A stretch of DNA of 64,000 nt from Gemmata palustris (GTDB taxonomy: Bacteria > Planctomycetota > Planctomycetia > Gemmatales > Gemmataceae), in NCBI RefSeq assembly GCF_017939745.1, contig NZ_JAGKQQ010000001.1, positions 7,517,299-7,581,298 of the forward strand, written 5' to 3'. How positions within the stretch are numbered: the first letter of the stretch is position 1; each line of letters begins with the position of its first letter. The notes beneath the pieces are model-generated. The model saw only the letters and a list, made by a program, of their open reading frames with translations. It had not been told where the DNA came from and searched no databases. The position numbers and the translations under genes are program-made. Shown here piece by piece: positions 50,619 through 57,790 of the stretch.

Positions 50619-51125
50619 TTAGGCTTCGCTGGCGACGATCACGGACGCCGGGCGCAGGACGCGGTCGTGCAGCATGAAGCCGTGCTGGAGCACCTGCACC
50701 ACCTGACCGGCGGCGAACTCGGTTCCGGGCTGCTGCATGACCGCTTGGTGCAGGTTCGTATCGAAATCCGCCCCCGGCTCGCACACGATCCGGGTGATGC
50801 CGTGCCGCTTGAGGGCGTCGAGGAACTGCGCTGCGGTCGCGGACACGCCCGTGGCGAGCGGCCCGGTGTCGCCGGCGCGCTTCACGGCGTCGAGCGCGCG
50901 GTCGAGGTTATCGAGCGGCGCGAGCAAATCGCGGGCGAGCGATTCCGCCGCGTACTTGCGCTCGACCTCCGCGTCGCGGAGCATCCGCTTGCGGGCGTTA
51001 TCGAAGTCGGCGAGCTTCAGCTTGTAGTTGCTCAATTCCTGTTCGGTCGCGTCCAGTTTCGCGCGCGTCGCGGCGAGTTCGGAAGCGTTCTCAACAGGGA
51101 TCGCGTCGGGTGCTTCGTCAGGCAT
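50619..51125 (-). CDS. grpE: GrpE nucleotide-exchange factor
   Basis: A 168-residue protein with an N-terminal coiled coil (about 12-55) and the GrpE domain: ADFDNARKRMLRDAEVERKY, LLAPLDNLDRALDAV and VVQVLQHGFMLHDRVLRPAS, VIVA. It ejects ADP from DnaK. It lies 107 bp after dnaJ. No dnaK is in the window, so DnaK must be coded elsewhere. Confidence 0.95.
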   Translation of the reverse strand: MPDEAPDAIPVENASELAATRAKLDATEQELSNYKLKLADFDNARKRMLRDAEVERKYAAESLARDLLAPLDNLDRALDAVKRAGDTGPLATGVSATAAQFLDALKRHGITRIVCEPGADFDTNLHQAVMQQPGTEFAAGQVVQVLQHGFMLHDRVLRPASVIVASEA

Positions 51126-51232
51126 TCGTGAAACCCTGGGGCGGAGTCGGCGCGTTCGTGTCGCGTTTGGTGCGAGTCGTCACAACGGTGGGCAGGCGCA
51201 AGGCCCCGACCCACCCTACAAATCACTGCGGA

Positions 51233-52384
51233 TCACTTCTTCTCTTCTTTTTGAGGGAGATCACCGCTTACGAGATCCTTCAATTTGCCGAAAATTCCCT
51301 TCCGCGGACCGGGCGCGAGTGTGCCCTCCAGGTCCGCGAGCTTGCGGAACAACTCTTCTTGCTCCGCGTTCAGTTTCGTGGGCGTTTCGACCACCAGTTG
51401 CACGAGCAGATCGCCCTTGCGCCGGGCGTCGTCGAGCCAGGGCATCCCGTGCCCCGGGACGCGGACGACGGTCGCGTGCGTCTGGCTCCCGCGCGGCACC
51501 TCGATGGTCACCTTCTGGTTCGTGAGCGTGGTGATTTCGATCGGCCCGCCGAGCGCGGCCCGGCTGAACGTGATCGGGCACTGGCAGATCAAATTGTGCC
51601 CGTCGCGCTCGAAGCTCTTGTGCTCGTGGACGCGGATCACGATTTCGAGATCCCCGCGCGGCGCGCCGGGCTCGCCCGCGTGCCCGCCGTTGGGGTAGGT
51701 GAACCGGATGCCGGTGTCCACGCCCGCGGGGATGTTCACCGTGACCGGTTCGCGCACCTCGACGCGCCCGGCCCCGCGGCACGTCGGGCACGGGTCGGTG
51801 ATGACCACGCCGCGCCCGTTGCACCCGCGGCACCGCATCCGCGTCGCGATGCCGAATCCTGTGTCCGCGACCTCGAAGCCCTGCCCGCGGCACCGGCGGC
51901 ACTGGGCCGGTTGCGTGCCTGGTTTCGCGCCGCCCCCGCCGCAATCGCGGCAGTTTTGCTCGGAGGGCACGGTGAACGTCTTGCTGACGCCGGTCGCGGC
52001 TTCGAGCAGGTCCAGATCGAGGACCGCGGCGATGTTCTCCCCGCGCCGCGGACCGCGCTGCCGGCGCCCGCCCCCACCACCGCCGAAGAACCCGCCGAGG
52101 AAGTCGCCGAGGAGGTCGCCCAGATCGACGCCCACGCCCTCACTGCTGGCCCCGCCCTGCACACCGGCGTGGCCGTGCCGGTCGTAGCGGGCGCGCTTGT
52201 TCGGGTCGTTCAGTATCGCGTAGGCCTCGTCGACTTCGGCGTACCGAATTTTCGCCTCGTCGTCGCCAATGTTGCGGTCCGGGTGGTACCGCTTCGCGAG
52301 TTGCCGGTACGCCTTGGTGATCTCCACCTCGGTGGACGTGCGGATGACGCCCAGCACCTCGTAGTAGTCGCGCTTCTCGGCCAT
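51233..52384 (-). CDS. dnaJ: DnaJ chaperone
   Basis: The ATG at 52384 gives the standard N-terminus (MAEKRDYYEVLGVIRTSTEV); a longer frame runs to 52471. A J domain (1-70) has HPD at 34-36. A Gly/Phe-rich region follows (GDFLGGFFGGGGGG). Four zinc-binding CxxCxGxG-type repeats follow (CRDCGGGG, CRRCRGQG, CRGCNGRG, CPTCRGAG). The C-terminal substrate domains are present (383 residues in all). It delivers substrates to DnaK. The gap upstream holds repeats and the IS110 element. Confidence 0.95.
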   Translation of the reverse strand: MAEKRDYYEVLGVIRTSTEVEITKAYRQLAKRYHPDRNIGDDEAKIRYAEVDEAYAILNDPNKRARYDRHGHAGVQGGASSEGVGVDLGDLLGDFLGGFFGGGGGGRRQRGPRRGENIAAVLDLDLLEAATGVSKTFTVPSEQNCRDCGGGGAKPGTQPAQCRRCRGQGFEVADTGFGIATRMRCRGCNGRGVVITDPCPTCRGAGRVEVREPVTVNIPAGVDTGIRFTYPNGGHAGEPGAPRGDLEIVIRVHEHKSFERDGHNLICQCPITFSRAALGGPIEITTLTNQKVTIEVPRGSQTHATVVRVPGHGMPWLDDARRKGDLLVQLVVETPTKLNAEQEELFRKLADLEGTLAPGPRKGIFGKLKDLVSGDLPQKEEKK

Positions 52385-52599
52385 AGGTTTGGGCGGTGAA
52401 CTGGGGGTAATTGAAAAGACACAATACCCATGATAGGCAGCACGCGGTAATGGGCACACAGACAAGCACATGGCTTCCGCCCTGTGCTACGGAAGACGGC
52501 CCCTCCGGGGCGGAAGACAGAAACACCCACGGATCAGATCAGGTGTCTTTCTCTTCGCCCCGGAGCGCCTGTGTTGAAGGTCAAGGGAAAAACACGCGA

Positions 52600-53544
52600 T
52601 TAGGCGGTGGCGACGTTCGGGGTCCACGGTTTGTTGTCGCGGATCATGGCATTAAGGATGACGAGGAGCTTGCGCATCGCCGCCACCTGCGCGACCTTGA
52701 TCGCTTTACCCGCCTTTCGCCGCTTCTGATAGAACGCGCGGATCGGCTCGTTGTACCGCACGGCCGAGAGGATCGCCATGTACAGGCCGCTCCGAACGCC
52801 CGCGCGCCCGCCGGCGATCGAACGGGTGCCCGACATCCGGCCACTGTCGCGGCTCATCGGGGCCACGCCCACGAGCGACGCGATCCGCTTGTTCGAGAGC
52901 GTTCCCAGCTCCGGGAGCTCGCTCACCAGCACCCGGCTCACGACCGGTCCGATGCCCGGAACCCCTTGGAGCAGGTCGTCCTTGGCGCGCCACACCGGAC
53001 GCGCTTCAATGAGCTCGGCCAGTTCCTTGTCGACCTGGTCCAGTTGCTTCGAGAGCCACGCGATGTGGGCCCGCACGCTCGTCGCCACGCGCGCGGTCGC
53101 CAGGGCCAGGCGGTTGGCCTCCGCGGTGCGCATCTCCAACAGCTGGCGGCGCCGGTCCACGAGACCCGCGAGGGCCACGGCCTCGGCACCGGGGAGCGCC
53201 CGGACCTCGGGTCGGATGGCCTCGGCGAAATGGGCCAGTACCGCGGCGTCGATGGCGTCGGTCTTGGCGAACTTGCCGGTGGCCCGGGCGAAGTCCCGTA
53301 CCTGGCGCGGGTTGACGACGGCCACGGGGTGCCCGGCCGCGGCGAGGGCCGCGGCCACCGCGCCCTCGAACCCCCCGGTGGCTTCGAGGACGATGCGCTC
53401 GGGCGCCCGTTCGCCCACGCGCGCGAGTAGGGCCGCAATACCGGTCGGGTCGTTGGTGTAGCGCGCGGCCGATCCGTCGGGCCGCGCGTGGAGGTCGAGA
53501 TGATCCTTGGAGACATCGATCCCCACGAAACATGCGGTCGTCAT
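52600..53544 (-). CDS. IS110-family transposase
   Basis: The ATG at 53544 gives MTTACFVGIDVSKDHLDLHA, the usual start. The 314-residue length fits. The DEDD residues of the RuvC-like domain are placed as expected: D10 (GIDVSKD), E54 (VLEATGGFE), and D96 and D99 (KTDAIDAAVLA). The C-terminal IS116-type domain contains GIGPVVSRVLVSELPELGTL and GTRSIAGGRAGVRSGLYMAI. These enzymes act with a bridge RNA encoded by the element. The frame is intact, so the element may be active. Confidence 0.93.
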   Translation of the reverse strand: MTTACFVGIDVSKDHLDLHARPDGSAARYTNDPTGIAALLARVGERAPERIVLEATGGFEGAVAAALAAAGHPVAVVNPRQVRDFARATGKFAKTDAIDAAVLAHFAEAIRPEVRALPGAEAVALAGLVDRRRQLLEMRTAEANRLALATARVATSVRAHIAWLSKQLDQVDKELAELIEARPVWRAKDDLLQGVPGIGPVVSRVLVSELPELGTLSNKRIASLVGVAPMSRDSGRMSGTRSIAGGRAGVRSGLYMAILSAVRYNEPIRAFYQKRRKAGKAIKVAQVAAMRKLLVILNAMIRDNKPWTPNVATA

Positions 53545-53718
53545 GGTGGTGCCCCGATGCACCCGTTCGGCCCGGCCTTGCGAATCCGGTTGGGGTCCAC
53601 GCGCCTGTTCGGGCTGCGAGGGTGCGAGAGTCGTGGGGTGGTCCTTGCTCCGGGACGGGATTTCACTCCCAAGGGGCGTGCGGCCTACCCCACCACTCTT
53701 CGGTTTACGAAACATACA
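53545..53718 (-). ncRNA. Candidate bridge RNA of the IS110 element
   Basis: No convincing open frame fits this 174-nt leader, and its length is close to that of known IS110-group bridge RNAs, which are encoded just upstream of the transposase. Sequence such as GGGGTAGGCC and GGACCACCCC can pair, but I did not fold it. This is an inference from family position and length. Confidence 0.4.
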
Positions 53719-53782
53719 AGGGGCCGTCTGACGTAGCACAGGGCGGAAGCCCTGTGTACCAGCGTGTACCCATCGCGGGCTA

Positions 53783-55468
53783 TCAGGCGATCGCCCCGGT
53801 GACCTTGGACTTCTTGTCGTCCTCGTCGATGCGGGTGACCATGACCTCGGTCGTCAGCATGAGGGCGGCGATGCTGGCGGCGTTGGTCAGCGCGCTGCGG
53901 GTGACGCGGAGCGGGTCGAGCACGCCGGCCTTGAACATGTCGACGTACTTGCCGGTGTTCGCGTCGTAGCCGATGTTCGGGTCCTTCTCGCCGCGGGTGG
54001 TCACCTCGTCGGCCACCACCGCGCCGTCCACGCCGCCGTTCTCGGCGATGGTGCGGATCGGCTTCTCGAGCGCGCGGGCCACGATCTCGGCCCCGATGCG
54101 CTCGTCGCCCTTGAGCTTCTCGCCCAGGGCCTCGACCACCGGGATGCACCGGAGCAGGGCCACGCCGCCGCCCGGCACGATGCCCTCGGACACCGCGGCG
54201 CGGGTCGCGTGCAGCGCGTCCTCGATGCGGCCCTTGGTCTGCTTCATTTCGGCTTCGGTGGACGCCCCAACCTTGACGATCGCGACCCCGCCGAGGAGCT
54301 TCGCGAGGCGCTCGGAGAACTTCTCCTTGTCGTACTCGCTCTCGGTCTGGTTCATCTGGGTGCGGATCGTCTGGGCGCGGGCCTTGATCGCCTCTTCGCG
54401 GGCGTCGTCGGGGTCCACGATGATGGTGCAGTTTTCCTTGTCGACCGACACCTGGGTCGCGTGCCCGAGCAGCGCGAACACCTTCGGCTGCGGGCGGGCG
54501 CCGCGCTGCTGCTCCGCGGGGCTGATGTCCTCGACGCTGTCGAGCTTGATCCCGAGGTCCTCGCTGACGAACGTGCCGCCGGTGAGGACCGCGATGTCTT
54601 CCATCATGGCCTTGCGGCGGTCACCAAACCCGGGCGCCTTCACCGCGCACACTTCGAGCAACTGGCGCAGCCGGTTCACCACCAGGACCGCGAGCGCCTC
54701 GCTCTCCACGTCCTCGGCGATGATGAGCAGCGGGCGGCCGGCCTTCGCGACCGCGTCGAGCAGCGGGAGCATCTCGCGCACGTTCGAGAGCTTCTTCTCG
54801 AACAGCAGCACGGAGACGTTCTCGTGCTCCCACTTCAGTTCCGGCGTGTTCACCACGAAGTACGGCGAGATGTAGCCCTTGTCGAACTGCATCCCCTCGA
54901 CGAACTCCAGCACGGTCTCGGAGGTCTTGCCCTCTTCGACCGTGATGACCCCGTCGCGCCCGACCTTCTCGAAGGCGTCGGCCATCAGGGCGCCGATCTT
55001 CGGGTCGTTGTTGGCCGAGATCGCGGCCACCTGCTGCATCTCTTCCTTCTTGGAGAGCTTCTTCGTGAGCGTGTCTTCGAGGTGCTTGACCGCGGCGGCC
55101 ACGGCCTTATCGATGCCGCGCTTCACGGCCATCGGGTTGGCGCCGGCGGTGATGTTCCGCAGTCCCTCCTGGTAGATCGCCAGGGCCAGTACGGTCGCGG
55201 TGGTGGTGCCGTCGCCGGCCCCGTCGCTCGTCTTCTGGGCGACCGCGTTCACGAGCTTGGCGCCCATGTTCTCGAACGGGTCGGCGAGGTCGATTTCCTT
55301 CGAGACGGTCACGCCGTCCTTGGTGACGGTCGGTCCGCCGAACGACTTGTCGATGATGACGTTCCGGCCGGTCGGCCCGAGCGTCGAACCGACCGCGCGG
55401 GCCAGTTTCTCGGCGCCGGTCAGGAGCTTCTTCCGCGCGTCATCGGTATAGAGCAGTTGCTTCGCCAT
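53783..55468 (-). CDS. groEL: Chaperonin GroEL, tail-less paralog
   Basis: A 561-residue GroEL with intact signatures: AKQLLYTDDARKKLLTGAEK, STLGPTGRNVIIDKSFGGPT, the ATP motif [18 protein letters not shown] and [13 protein letters not shown]. The C-terminus is RIDEDDKKSKVTGAIA and lacks a GGM tail; the equatorial core looks normal. It lies downstream of groES. The other groEL (56045) does carry a GGM tail, so the two may have different clients. It is the downstream paralog and the gene next to the IS110 insertion. Confidence 0.95.
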   Translation of the reverse strand: MAKQLLYTDDARKKLLTGAEKLARAVGSTLGPTGRNVIIDKSFGGPTVTKDGVTVSKEIDLADPFENMGAKLVNAVAQKTSDGAGDGTTTATVLALAIYQEGLRNITAGANPMAVKRGIDKAVAAAVKHLEDTLTKKLSKKEEMQQVAAISANNDPKIGALMADAFEKVGRDGVITVEEGKTSETVLEFVEGMQFDKGYISPYFVVNTPELKWEHENVSVLLFEKKLSNVREMLPLLDAVAKAGRPLLIIAEDVESEALAVLVVNRLRQLLEVCAVKAPGFGDRRKAMMEDIAVLTGGTFVSEDLGIKLDSVEDISPAEQQRGARPQPKVFALLGHATQVSVDKENCTIIVDPDDAREEAIKARAQTIRTQMNQTESEYDKEKFSERLAKLLGGVAIVKVGASTEAEMKQTKGRIEDALHATRAAVSEGIVPGGGVALLRCIPVVEALGEKLKGDERIGAEIVARALEKPIRTIAENGGVDGAVVADEVTTRGEKDPNIGYDANTGKYVDMFKAGVLDPLRVTRSALTNAASIAALMLTTEVMVTRIDEDDKKSKVTGAIA

Positions 55469-55486
55469 TGTGTCTCCAGGAAGGTA

Positions 55487-55581
55487 TTCACCGCAGAGAA
55501 CGCAGAGGGCGCGGAGAGAGAACGTGAGATCGGCTGAGTCCCGCTCTCAATCTCTGCGTTCCCGGCGCCCTCTGCGGTGAA
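55487..55581. repeat. Imperfect inverted repeat, TTCACCGCAGAG family
   Basis: TTCACCGCAGAGAACGCAGA (from 55487) and TCTCTGCGTTCCCGGCGCCC...GCGGTGAA (55551-55581) form an imperfect pair in the gap between groES and the downstream groEL. It is related to the repeats at 36689 and 39859. Confidence 0.7.
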
Positions 55582-55593
55582 ATAGAGTTTGAA

Positions 55594-55905
55594 TTACTTG
55601 TTCAGCTTGCCGAGGATCTCGGACTCGCGGACGATCTTGTATTCCTTGCCGTTCACTTCGACGTCGGACCCGCTGTACTTGCCGAACAGCACGGTGTCGC
55701 CGACCTTCACGGCCAGCACGGTCCGGGTGCCCTTGTCCGAGAGCTTGCCCGGGCCGACCGCGATCACTTTGCCCTGCTGCGGCTTCTGCTTCGCGGTGTC
55801 GGGAAGCAGGATGCCGCCGGCCGACTTTTCTTCCGCTTCGGTCGGCTCCAGCACCACGCGGTCGTCGAGCGGCTTCAGGGTCAGTTGCTTTTCTGCTTTG
55901 GCCAT
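55594..55905 (-). CDS. groES: Co-chaperonin GroES
   Basis: A 103-residue GroES with the usual motifs: [20 protein letters not shown], the mobile-loop [20 protein letters not shown] and [20 protein letters not shown]. It caps the GroEL cavity in the cytosol. It stands between two groEL genes, with the upstream one ending 139 bp before it. Confidence 0.97.
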
Positions 55906-55983
55906 TGTTGTGCTCCGGTTGAATCTTGTCGGAACCCGGGGTGTCGCCCCGAGGAGTCGCAGTTCTTCGGACTGATTTTGTAT

Positions 55984-55999
55984 TCACCCGATCGGGTGA
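55984..55999. promoter_or_regulatory. Perfect 16-bp palindrome upstream of groES
   Basis: TCACCCGATCGGGTGA lies 79 bp before the groES start. It could be an operator. No CIRCE element (TTAGCACTC-N9-GAGTGCTAA) is seen at this or the upstream groEL promoter region. Confidence 0.4.
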
Positions 56000-56004
56000 C
56001 ATTT

Positions 56005-56033
56005 CTCAGCCCGGGGTAACCCCCCGGGCTGAG
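56005..56033 (-). terminator. Stem-loop after the upstream groEL
   Basis: The 11-bp stem CTCAGCCCGGG/CCCGGGCTGAG (56005-56015 and 56023-56033) lies 12 bp beyond the groEL stop. It may limit read-through into groES. Confidence 0.6.
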
Positions 56034-56044
56034 AACGAAGCTGT

Positions 56045-57790
56045 CTACATCATCCCCGGCATGCCACCCATTCCGCCCATGCCACCCATTCCGCCCATGC
56101 CACCCATTCCACCCATCCCGCCGCCGTGATCGTGATCGTGATGATCGCCGCCCGCCTTCTTCGGCTCGGGAATGTCCGCGATCATGCACTCGGTGGTGAG
56201 GAGCAGGCACGCGACGCTCGCCCCGTGCTGGAGCGCGCTGCGGGTGACCTTGACCGGGTCGATGACGCCGGCTTTGCGGAGGTCGGCGTACTCACCGGTG
56301 TCCGCGTTGTACCCGAAATTCTTGTCCGTCCCCTTGAGGATCTTGGACACGACCACGGTGCCGTCCGCGCCCGCGTTCTCCGCGATCATGCGGCAGGGCA
56401 TTTCGAGCGCCCGGAACAGCACGCGGGCGCCTTCGCCCTCGTCGCCCGCGAGCTTGCTCTTCTCGATCGCTTTACGGGCGTTGAGAAGGGCCACGCCGCC
56501 GCCGGGCACGATGCCTTCGGCGATGGCCGCGCGGGTCGCGTGGAGGCTGTCTTCGTACAGCGCCTTGCGCTCCTTCATCGCGGTCTCGGTCGCGCCGCCG
56601 ACCTTGAGTTGTGCCACGCCGCCGGCGAGCTTCGCCAGGCGCTCTTGCAGCTTCTCGCGGTCGTACTCGCTCTCGGTCTTCTCGATTTCCTTGCGGATCG
56701 ACTCGGCCCGGCCCTCGATCGAGGCCTTTTCGCCCTTACCCTCGGTAACGGTCGTGTTCTCGGCGTCGATCTTCACCTTCTTCGCGCGCCCGAGCGTCCC
56801 CTTGTCGTGGACGACCGTCGGAACCGGCCCCTTGGGGGTCTGCGTGACCGCGTCGAGTTGGATCGCGAGGTCTTTGAAGATCGCCTTACCGCCGGTGAGG
56901 ATGGCGATGTCTTCCATCATGGCCTTGCGGCGGTCGCCGTAGCCCGGCGCCTTCACCGCACACACCTGAACGACGCCCTTGAGCTTGTTCAGCACCAGGC
57001 CCGCGAGCGCGTCGCCCTCGATGTCCTCGGCGATGATGAGCAGTTGGGCCTTTTCCTTGTGCGCCCACTCGAGCAGCGGGAGGATGGTCTTGAGGCTGCT
57101 GATCTTCTCTTCGTAGATGAGGATGTACGGGTTCTCGAACTCGCACGTCACCGTTTCGGCGTTGGTGACGAAGTGCGGCGAGAGGTACCCGCGGTCGAAC
57201 TGCATGCCCTGAACGACGTTAATGACCGTCTCGGCGGTCTTGCCCTCTTCGATGGTGATGACGCCGTTGGCGGCGCCGACCAGTTTCATCGCTTCGGCGA
57301 GCTTCTTGCCGATTTCTTTGTCGTTGTTGGCCGCGATGCTGGCGACTTCGGTGATGCTCTTGTTGTCCTTCGGGTCGATGGTCTCGGCGATCTTGGCGAG
57401 CTCTTCGACGACCTTATCGACGCTCTTCTGGATGCCGCGCACGATCGCCATCGGGTCGTGCCCGCCGGCGACGCTCTTCAGCCCCTCGCGGAAGATGAAT
57501 TCGGCGAGAACGGTCGCCGTGGTGGTGCCGTCGCCGGCCACGTCGGAGGTCTTGCTCGCGGCCTCCTTGACGAGCTGCGCGCCCATGTTCTCGAACGGGT
57601 CTTTGAGCTCGATGTCTTCGGCGACGGAGACCCCGTCCTTGGTGACGGTCGGCGCGCCCCAACCCTTGTCGAGAACGGCGTTGCGCCCGCGCGGCCCGAG
57701 CGTGGAGCGAACAGCACGAGCGAGCTTGCTGGCCCCGGCGAGAAGTTTCTGCCGGGCATCATCGGCGTAGGAAAGTTGCTTGGCTGCCAT
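56045..57790 (-). CDS. groEL: Chaperonin GroEL with His-rich and GGM tail
   Basis: A 581-residue GroEL with ATP motif [38 protein letters not shown] and [20 protein letters not shown]. The C-terminus is unusual: it ends with a His/Asp run (HHDHDHGGG) and a GGMGGM repeat finishing MPGMM. GGM tails are normal in housekeeping GroEL; the histidine run may bind metals. It is first of the groEL-groES-groEL set. A 330-bp gap with a palindrome lies upstream, so it begins the transcript. Confidence 0.96.

Follow-up and report, generated by a model that had tools for sequence, protein, structure and literature searches.

An IS110 element inside a REPIN of Gemmata palustris, with a putative bridge RNA predicted to specify the REPIN hairpin apex

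How does an insertion sequence come to lie between the arms of an inverted repeat, inside a gene cluster? This question is raised by a locus in a 64,000-nt stretch of Gemmata palustris DNA (the window), where a same-strand heat-shock cluster (window 50619-57790) reads groEL, groES, groEL, REPIN plus IS110, dnaJ, and grpE, with the gene names assigned by reading translations. The first-pass annotation had placed an intact IS110 transposase between inverted arms, and this was borne out. The open reading frame (53544 to 52600, minus strand) is intact and encodes 314 aa, and 31 of the 33 positions of one arm (52472-52504) are complementary to the other (53719-53751) in inverted orientation.

The transposase matched PF01548 (1.5e-23) and PF02371 (2.5e-16), both above cut-off, and scored 217 bits (cut-off 140) against NF033542, 'IS110 family RNA-guided transposase'; a DEDD N-terminal domain and a Transposase_20 C-terminal domain were both found. 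The noncoding ends consist of a long left end (LE, 174 nt) and a short right end (RE, 34 nt), which is the layout of the IS110 group and the reverse of that of the IS1111 group. The element is thus a member of the IS110 group, a kind already known. Alignment of five copies with empty repeats placed the true ends at CT/AG cores (52564-52565 and 53719-53720), with transposase-strand junctions of GGCCC-CT-TGTATGTTTCG on the left and CAACACAGGCG-CT-CCGGGGCG on the right. The CT core was kept at the left junction in all five copies and at the right junction in four, an indel having removed it in the degraded copy L005. The element therefore spans 1,155 bp including one CT core (52566-53720), and the interval 52472-53751 earlier given for it needs trimming, as its first 94 bases (52472-52565) are REPIN. 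The features of the locus, in window coordinates, are:

52467..52518, plus strand: left REP arm of the REPIN, uninterrupted, with outer hairpin, CTAC tag, and inner hairpin CGGCCCCTCCGGGGCGG (RF01687 match at 52467-52512, 23.9 bits, gathering score 37; genome-wide recurrence)
52552..52565, minus strand: target right half on the transposase strand, CT-CCGGGGCGAAGA, with core CT at 52564-52565 (same sequence in empty REPINs)
52566..53720, minus strand: IS110 element with one core copy (boundaries from the five-copy alignment against empty repeats)
52566..52599, minus strand: RE, 34 nt, terminal ACAGGCG adjoining the core CT (copy alignment; RE ends similar in relatives)
52600..53544, minus strand: IS110 transposase/recombinase gene, 314 aa (PF01548, PF02371, NF033542; four identical copies)
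53545..53718, minus strand: LE, 174 nt, putative bridge RNA source (two-loop consensus fold of 53559-53697 with relatives; start CT|TGTATGTT, as in most relatives)
53571..53581, minus strand: predicted right donor guide region GCAAGGCCGGG (CAAG pairs with CTTG at LE; weak, four contiguous pairs only)
53600..53609, minus strand: predicted left donor guide AACAGGCGCG (ACAGGCGC against RE ACAGGCGCT, 8/8, covarying with relatives)
53648..53654, minus strand: predicted right target guide CCCGGAG (its reverse complement, CTCCGGG, is identical to the target right half, 7/7)
53672..53677, minus strand: predicted left target guide GCCCCT (six contiguous matches to the target left half GGCCCCT)
53719..53756, minus strand: outer part of the right REP arm, with GTAG tag, hairpin, and target left half GGCCC-CT (RF01687, 22.3 bits, gathering score 37; alignment to empty repeats)

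The split arms had been suspected to be a genomic repeat, and at least 116 arm matches were found genome-wide, the five element copies included, with 40 of 243 first-look candidates scored; the inverted pair as such exists in dozens of copies, solo pairs among them. The repeat is an inverted pair of ~45-nt arms plus a spacer (about 100-180 bp in the solo copies inspected) with the build CACAGGGCTTCCGCCCTGTG-CTAC-N6-CGGCCCCTCCGGGGCG, then the spacer, then the reverse complement. On the opposite strand GTAG precedes the outer hairpin, and GTAGCACAGGGC...GCCCTGTG was seen directly. The earlier picture of a divided palindrome was therefore right in its inverted arms (31/33) and wrong in supposing a 33-bp palindrome cut centrally: the insertion point lies off centre of the arm pair, where the inner hairpin of the right arm has its apex, and for this reason the CT core marks the exact end of the arms; the GTAG hairpin is not targeted. 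Genome-wide, the 11-mer target GCCCCTCCGGG was counted at 143 sites versus 12 for the reversed control, and a strict REP pattern surrounds it at 97 sites versus none in the control.

A Y1 transposase open reading frame of 148 aa (C1:4267498-4267944, minus strand) carries a REPIN on each side, the layout of a REPtron. It is the one of four Y1 matches in this genome that is flanked by this repeat. Near the match at C1:3636373 no copy of the exact repeat was found and an RF01687 match of 31 bits lies in the neighborhood; no repeat copy was seen in the neighborhood of C1:4313822; and the fourth match, C1:7130432, is below the Pfam cut-off. Because of the GTAG tag, the inverted pairs, and the Y1 frame with an inverted pair on each side, the repeat is, as judged from these sequence features, a REP/REPIN with a RAYT. 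GTAG-tagged REPs with RAYTs have been described with Planctomycetes named among the holders (PMC3733652), and the repeat resembles them in having GTAG beside a hairpin, inverted dimers, and a RAYT flanked by the repeat. The text of that paper does not mention Gemmata and seemingly makes no connection between the repeat and any Rfam family.

Five near-full copies of the element are present in the 9.2-Mb genome (three contigs), of which four encode the identical transposase protein and one is disrupted by indels. With these copies, and with an arm that recurs genome-wide as solo inverted pairs, the pattern is far beyond chance. A survey of the other copies, proposed in the first-pass annotation, placed all five near-full copies and a single short derivative in the same repeat family. 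The degraded copy (L005, G000:C1:1801743-1802929) is full length and has many 1-2-base deletions spread along the gene, and in another copy (L004) the junction reads GTCCCCT and mismatches the left guide at one base. The idea that insertion is safe and frequent may hold in part: this copy is intergenic between groEL and dnaJ, and for the other copies the surrounding open frames were listed.

The short derivative (L006/L109, G000:C1:3004409-3004623, ~215 bp) is an internally deleted IS110 inside a REPIN. Its right end and most of its leader remain, its left end is decayed, and the transposase is gone. We rejected a role for it as a functional bridge-RNA MITE: it is a single copy whose longest matching piece is 88% identical, it lacks the LE start CT|TGTATG, and the second half of its donor loop is deleted. 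We read it as probably a decayed relic. No paper on a bridge RNA together with a non-autonomous IS110 was found in the open-access literature.

The order of events can be approached through the groEL-dnaJ gap of same-genus genomes, which was readable in 15 of 18 (G012 and G013 were left out, and G025 is cut by a contig end). The IS was seen in none of the 15 readable gaps, and none of the 18 genomes had a transposase match at E ≤ 1e-60. A complete empty REPIN is present in the same gap of G010, whose groEL end is 95% identical, and G017 and G024 also have a REPIN there; G009 and G026 have only an outer-hairpin remnant, G016 has a different inverted repeat, and no such repeat was seen in the remaining readable gaps. 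Given these empty REPINs in relatives, the REPIN most likely preceded the IS, which would then have entered it.

The 174-nt noncoding leader upstream of the transposase (53545-53718), proposed earlier as a bridge RNA on account of its size and place, is present as described. Folded alone it is only modestly stable (z = -1.07; 28 of 200 shuffles equally stable), and since single-leader folding was uninformative, an alignment was needed. In a consensus from 15 aligned leaders two loops were recovered, with compensatory change in 15 of 24 pairs (0 of 500 shuffles equal) and 92.7% of cells paired, compared with a shuffled mean of 77.7% and at most 52.8% in slid versions. G-U cells outnumber A-C cells by 19:3, or by 10:3 leaving out one pair that supplies nine, an excess that favors the sense strand as the folding strand. 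Thus, the covariation supports a leader that encodes a bridge RNA with two loops.

Loop complementarity, the other check proposed for the leader, was examined in this element and its relatives. With the core included, the left and right target guides are complementary to the target at 6/7 and 7/7 positions, respectively, and the left donor guide matches at 8/8. CAAG of the right donor guide is kept in all 15 aligned leaders, its contiguous pairing with LE being 4 bases only. Relatives were collected by protein search (six of 95 family genomes at E ≤ 1e-60 and 20 of 397 class genomes at E ≤ 1e-75, own genome included in each) and by a wider contig scan that gave nine loci, of which two were used and seven partial matches (L045-L051) were left out. 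The guide test scored the 19 of 23 elements with readable ends; LE was not found in G050, G199, G300, and G350, and contig-end truncation is taken to be the cause in G300 and G350. Multi-copy elements were represented by one copy each, the second one in the case of G239. Guides were (i) taken at the same alignment columns for 15 elements (right target guide perfect in 13), and (ii) set by eye against the known target for the G046, G052, Rhizobiales, and Chloroflexi elements; matches had been noticed by eye before the guide positions were fixed. For the left guide the highest score among three registers was taken, with real and shuffled targets treated alike, and G046, whose left target is off the contig, was given 0.

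The ends of the relatives are alike, with CT followed mostly by TGTAT and mostly ACAG-N-CG before the right CT, and the targets differ. Across the 19 elements the right target guide matched at 126 of 133 positions, compared with a shuffled-target mean of 74.3 and maximum of 102, a sum that 20,000 shuffles never reached; leaving out the core gave 88 of 95 versus 36.3. The match was perfect (7/7) in 16 elements, 6/7 in G239 and the Chloroflexi element, and 2/7 in G203. For the left target guide the sum was 108 versus 76.7 (0 of 20,000 shuffles), with only four elements perfect at 7/7, and for the left donor guide 147 of 152 versus 134.5 (0 of 20,000), with 8/8 in 14 elements and 7/8 in five. When the core was removed and one element was kept per distinct right guide (n = 15), the sums were 74 versus 28.6 on the right and 58 versus 36.8 on the left, again with 0 of 20,000 shuffles. 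The fifth base of the donor guide tracks the RE, being G in this element, C in G271, G205, and G362, and T in the rest. The element of G203 (L092), the sole clear misfit of the right target guide among the 19, has a TAG stop in its transposase frame and may be a copy that was rearranged or recently retargeted.

Two other accounts of the locus were weighed against these data. The transposase protein itself might recognize the REP hairpin, by structure or by sequence, with the leader acting as a regulatory 5′ UTR only. A target at a hairpin apex would suit such recognition, as would the palindromes in which some relatives (G172 and G205) also lie, and the leader of ISPpu9, over which a stable antisense RNA (Asr9) is described, offers a precedent as a regulatory 5′ UTR (PMC8450116). 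However, the targets of the relatives differ from one another, and the guides in the leaders collectively fit their own targets much more closely than those of others; we regard protein recognition as very unlikely.

Alternatively, the arms and the element could be mobile as one unit, moved for example by a REP-handling RAYT, so that the arms would be terminal repeats. A RAYT with the same flanking REPINs does reside in the genome, and the order REP-IS-REP resembles a REPtron, yet the five copies differ in left arm, spacer, and outer flanks, and identity begins at the right-arm target and core. None of the five copies shares identical arms and spacer; in three (L002, L003, and L005) the untouched arm is a variant with a poorer fit to the guide, and in two it is perfect. 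Joint movement by a RAYT was rejected because the flanks of the copies differ; we consider it extremely improbable.

Our preferred reading (probability about 0.95) is that the locus is an IS110 insertion sequence with a leader-encoded bridge RNA whose target loop would specify the REPIN hairpin apex. It builds on the boundaries, the core, the repeat family, the guide-target and guide-donor matches, the two-loop covariation, and the empty site of a relative, all observed in the sequences, while RNA production, circle formation, and the chemistry are inferred from IS621 biology. The target loop (GCCCCT left, CCCGGAG right) would specify GCCC-CT-CCGGG, the inner-hairpin apex of the REP/REPIN, and the donor loop would read the circular element junction ACAGGCG-CT-TGTATG. 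Recombinase and bridge RNA would then recombine the CT of the circle with the CT of the hairpin apex, leaving CT at both junctions and a split REPIN arm. With the repeat scattered genome-wide, one guide could have about a hundred landing sites.

This model follows the IS110 elements of Durrant 2024 (PMC11208160), for which REP targets, two loops, and a core inside all pairings are described. Like IS621 of E. coli in that report, the Gemmata element has (i) a DEDD plus Transposase_20 recombinase and a long LE with a predicted two-loop RNA; and (ii) a CT core within the guide pairings and insertion in a REP. It differs from IS621 in host, REP family, and guides, its right target guide matching 7 nt; right target guides longer than that of IS621 are noted there for some orthologues. 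REP association is also tabulated for ISPpu9 (7/7), ISPpu10 (7/7), ISPa11 (6/6), and ISRm19 (4/4) by Tobes and Pareja 2006 (PMC1525189, Table 2). What sets the present element apart from these four is that it cuts a REPIN arm at the inner hairpin, next to the outer hairpin with its GTAG tag. The open-access literature yielded no paper on IS110 in Gemmata, nor on IS110 with a bridge RNA in planctomycetes.

The REPIN arms and the leader also touch two Rfam families. RF01687 (Acido-Lenti-1) is typed as sRNA, and its row in the table of Weinberg 2010 (PMC2864571) gives 'RNA? y' with Acidobacteria and Lentisphaerae. On the repeat of this genome it scores weakly, with 81 matches at E ≤ 1 and two over the gathering score; 29 of the 81 have an opposite-strand partner within 220 bp, a count lowered because many arms score too low to be among the matches. 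In the bacterial family, 67 of 95 genomes have matches at E ≤ 0.001 and 54 exceed the gathering score, with at least 57 matches in the top genome. Among 14 control genomes four had weak matches at E up to 1, none over the cut-off, and none had matches at E up to 0.001. The eight RF01687 loci that were read are inverted pairs built along similar lines, for example CCCAGGGC..GCCCTGGG-CTAC..CCGCCCCTTCGGGGC.

Y1 neighborhoods (n = 20) were those of each genome's best match by E-value, with G017 skipped for a partial match and several cut by contig ends. An over-threshold RF01687 lay within ~800 bp in seven and a weak one in one more, and none was found at E ≤ 0.01 in the other 12; chance expectation is ~0.01-0.02 per neighborhood at 57 copies in 8 Mb, by our own estimate from lower-bound counts. 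The repeat flanks or neighbors Y1/RAYT genes at L172 (594-1278), L174 (360-1311), L158, L159, L161, L163, and L168. Genomes with at least five RF01687 repeats numbered 47 with Y1 and two without, compared with 26 and 20 for those with fewer repeats, a co-presence that genome size and kinship confound and that is only supportive. In this bacterial family, RF01687 has the look of the RAYT-associated REP repeat and not of an sRNA gene. Inverted repeats adjacent to Y1 at L145 (1344-1468), L147 (1058-1151), and L172 (599-689) score against mir-609, mir-8515, and mir-607, all below gathering, and such miRNA precursor names on bacterial repeats are likely false.

The second family, RF02234 (sX15), is a Xanthomonadaceae sRNA family. 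It matched the G200 leader (L080 417-570, minus strand) in antisense, end to end, at 46.9 bits (cut-off 55; E 5.3e-7 in a 241-base scan); at E 0.05, only G200 matched among the ten relatives' loci scanned. The window leader (53553-53707, plus strand) matched weakly, also in antisense, at 24.8 bits, below cut-off (E 0.025 in a 261-base scan); this match was seen only in that scan, none being found in the window at E ≤ 5 in a 4-kb scan. Overall, we lean toward the view that both 'sRNA' families are parts of mobile DNA, RF01687 being the RAYT REP/REPIN and, here, the IS110 landing site, and RF02234 the strand antisense to the bridge-RNA leaders of IS110, perhaps a conserved, Asr9-like RNA acting on the bridge RNA. 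No paper joining RAYT, REPIN, and Rfam was found in the open-access literature. If these links are right, automatic annotations of these two 'sRNAs' in many genomes would be mobile DNA.

These elements may provide a clean natural test of bridge-RNA targeting, in that the guides of related IS110 elements appear to track different targets, and the relatives could readily supply recombinases that differ in their guides, 7-nt right guides included, and in their donor ends. For Gemmata, two independent mobile systems would be tied together, one that spreads a hairpin repeat and another whose guide reads the hairpin.
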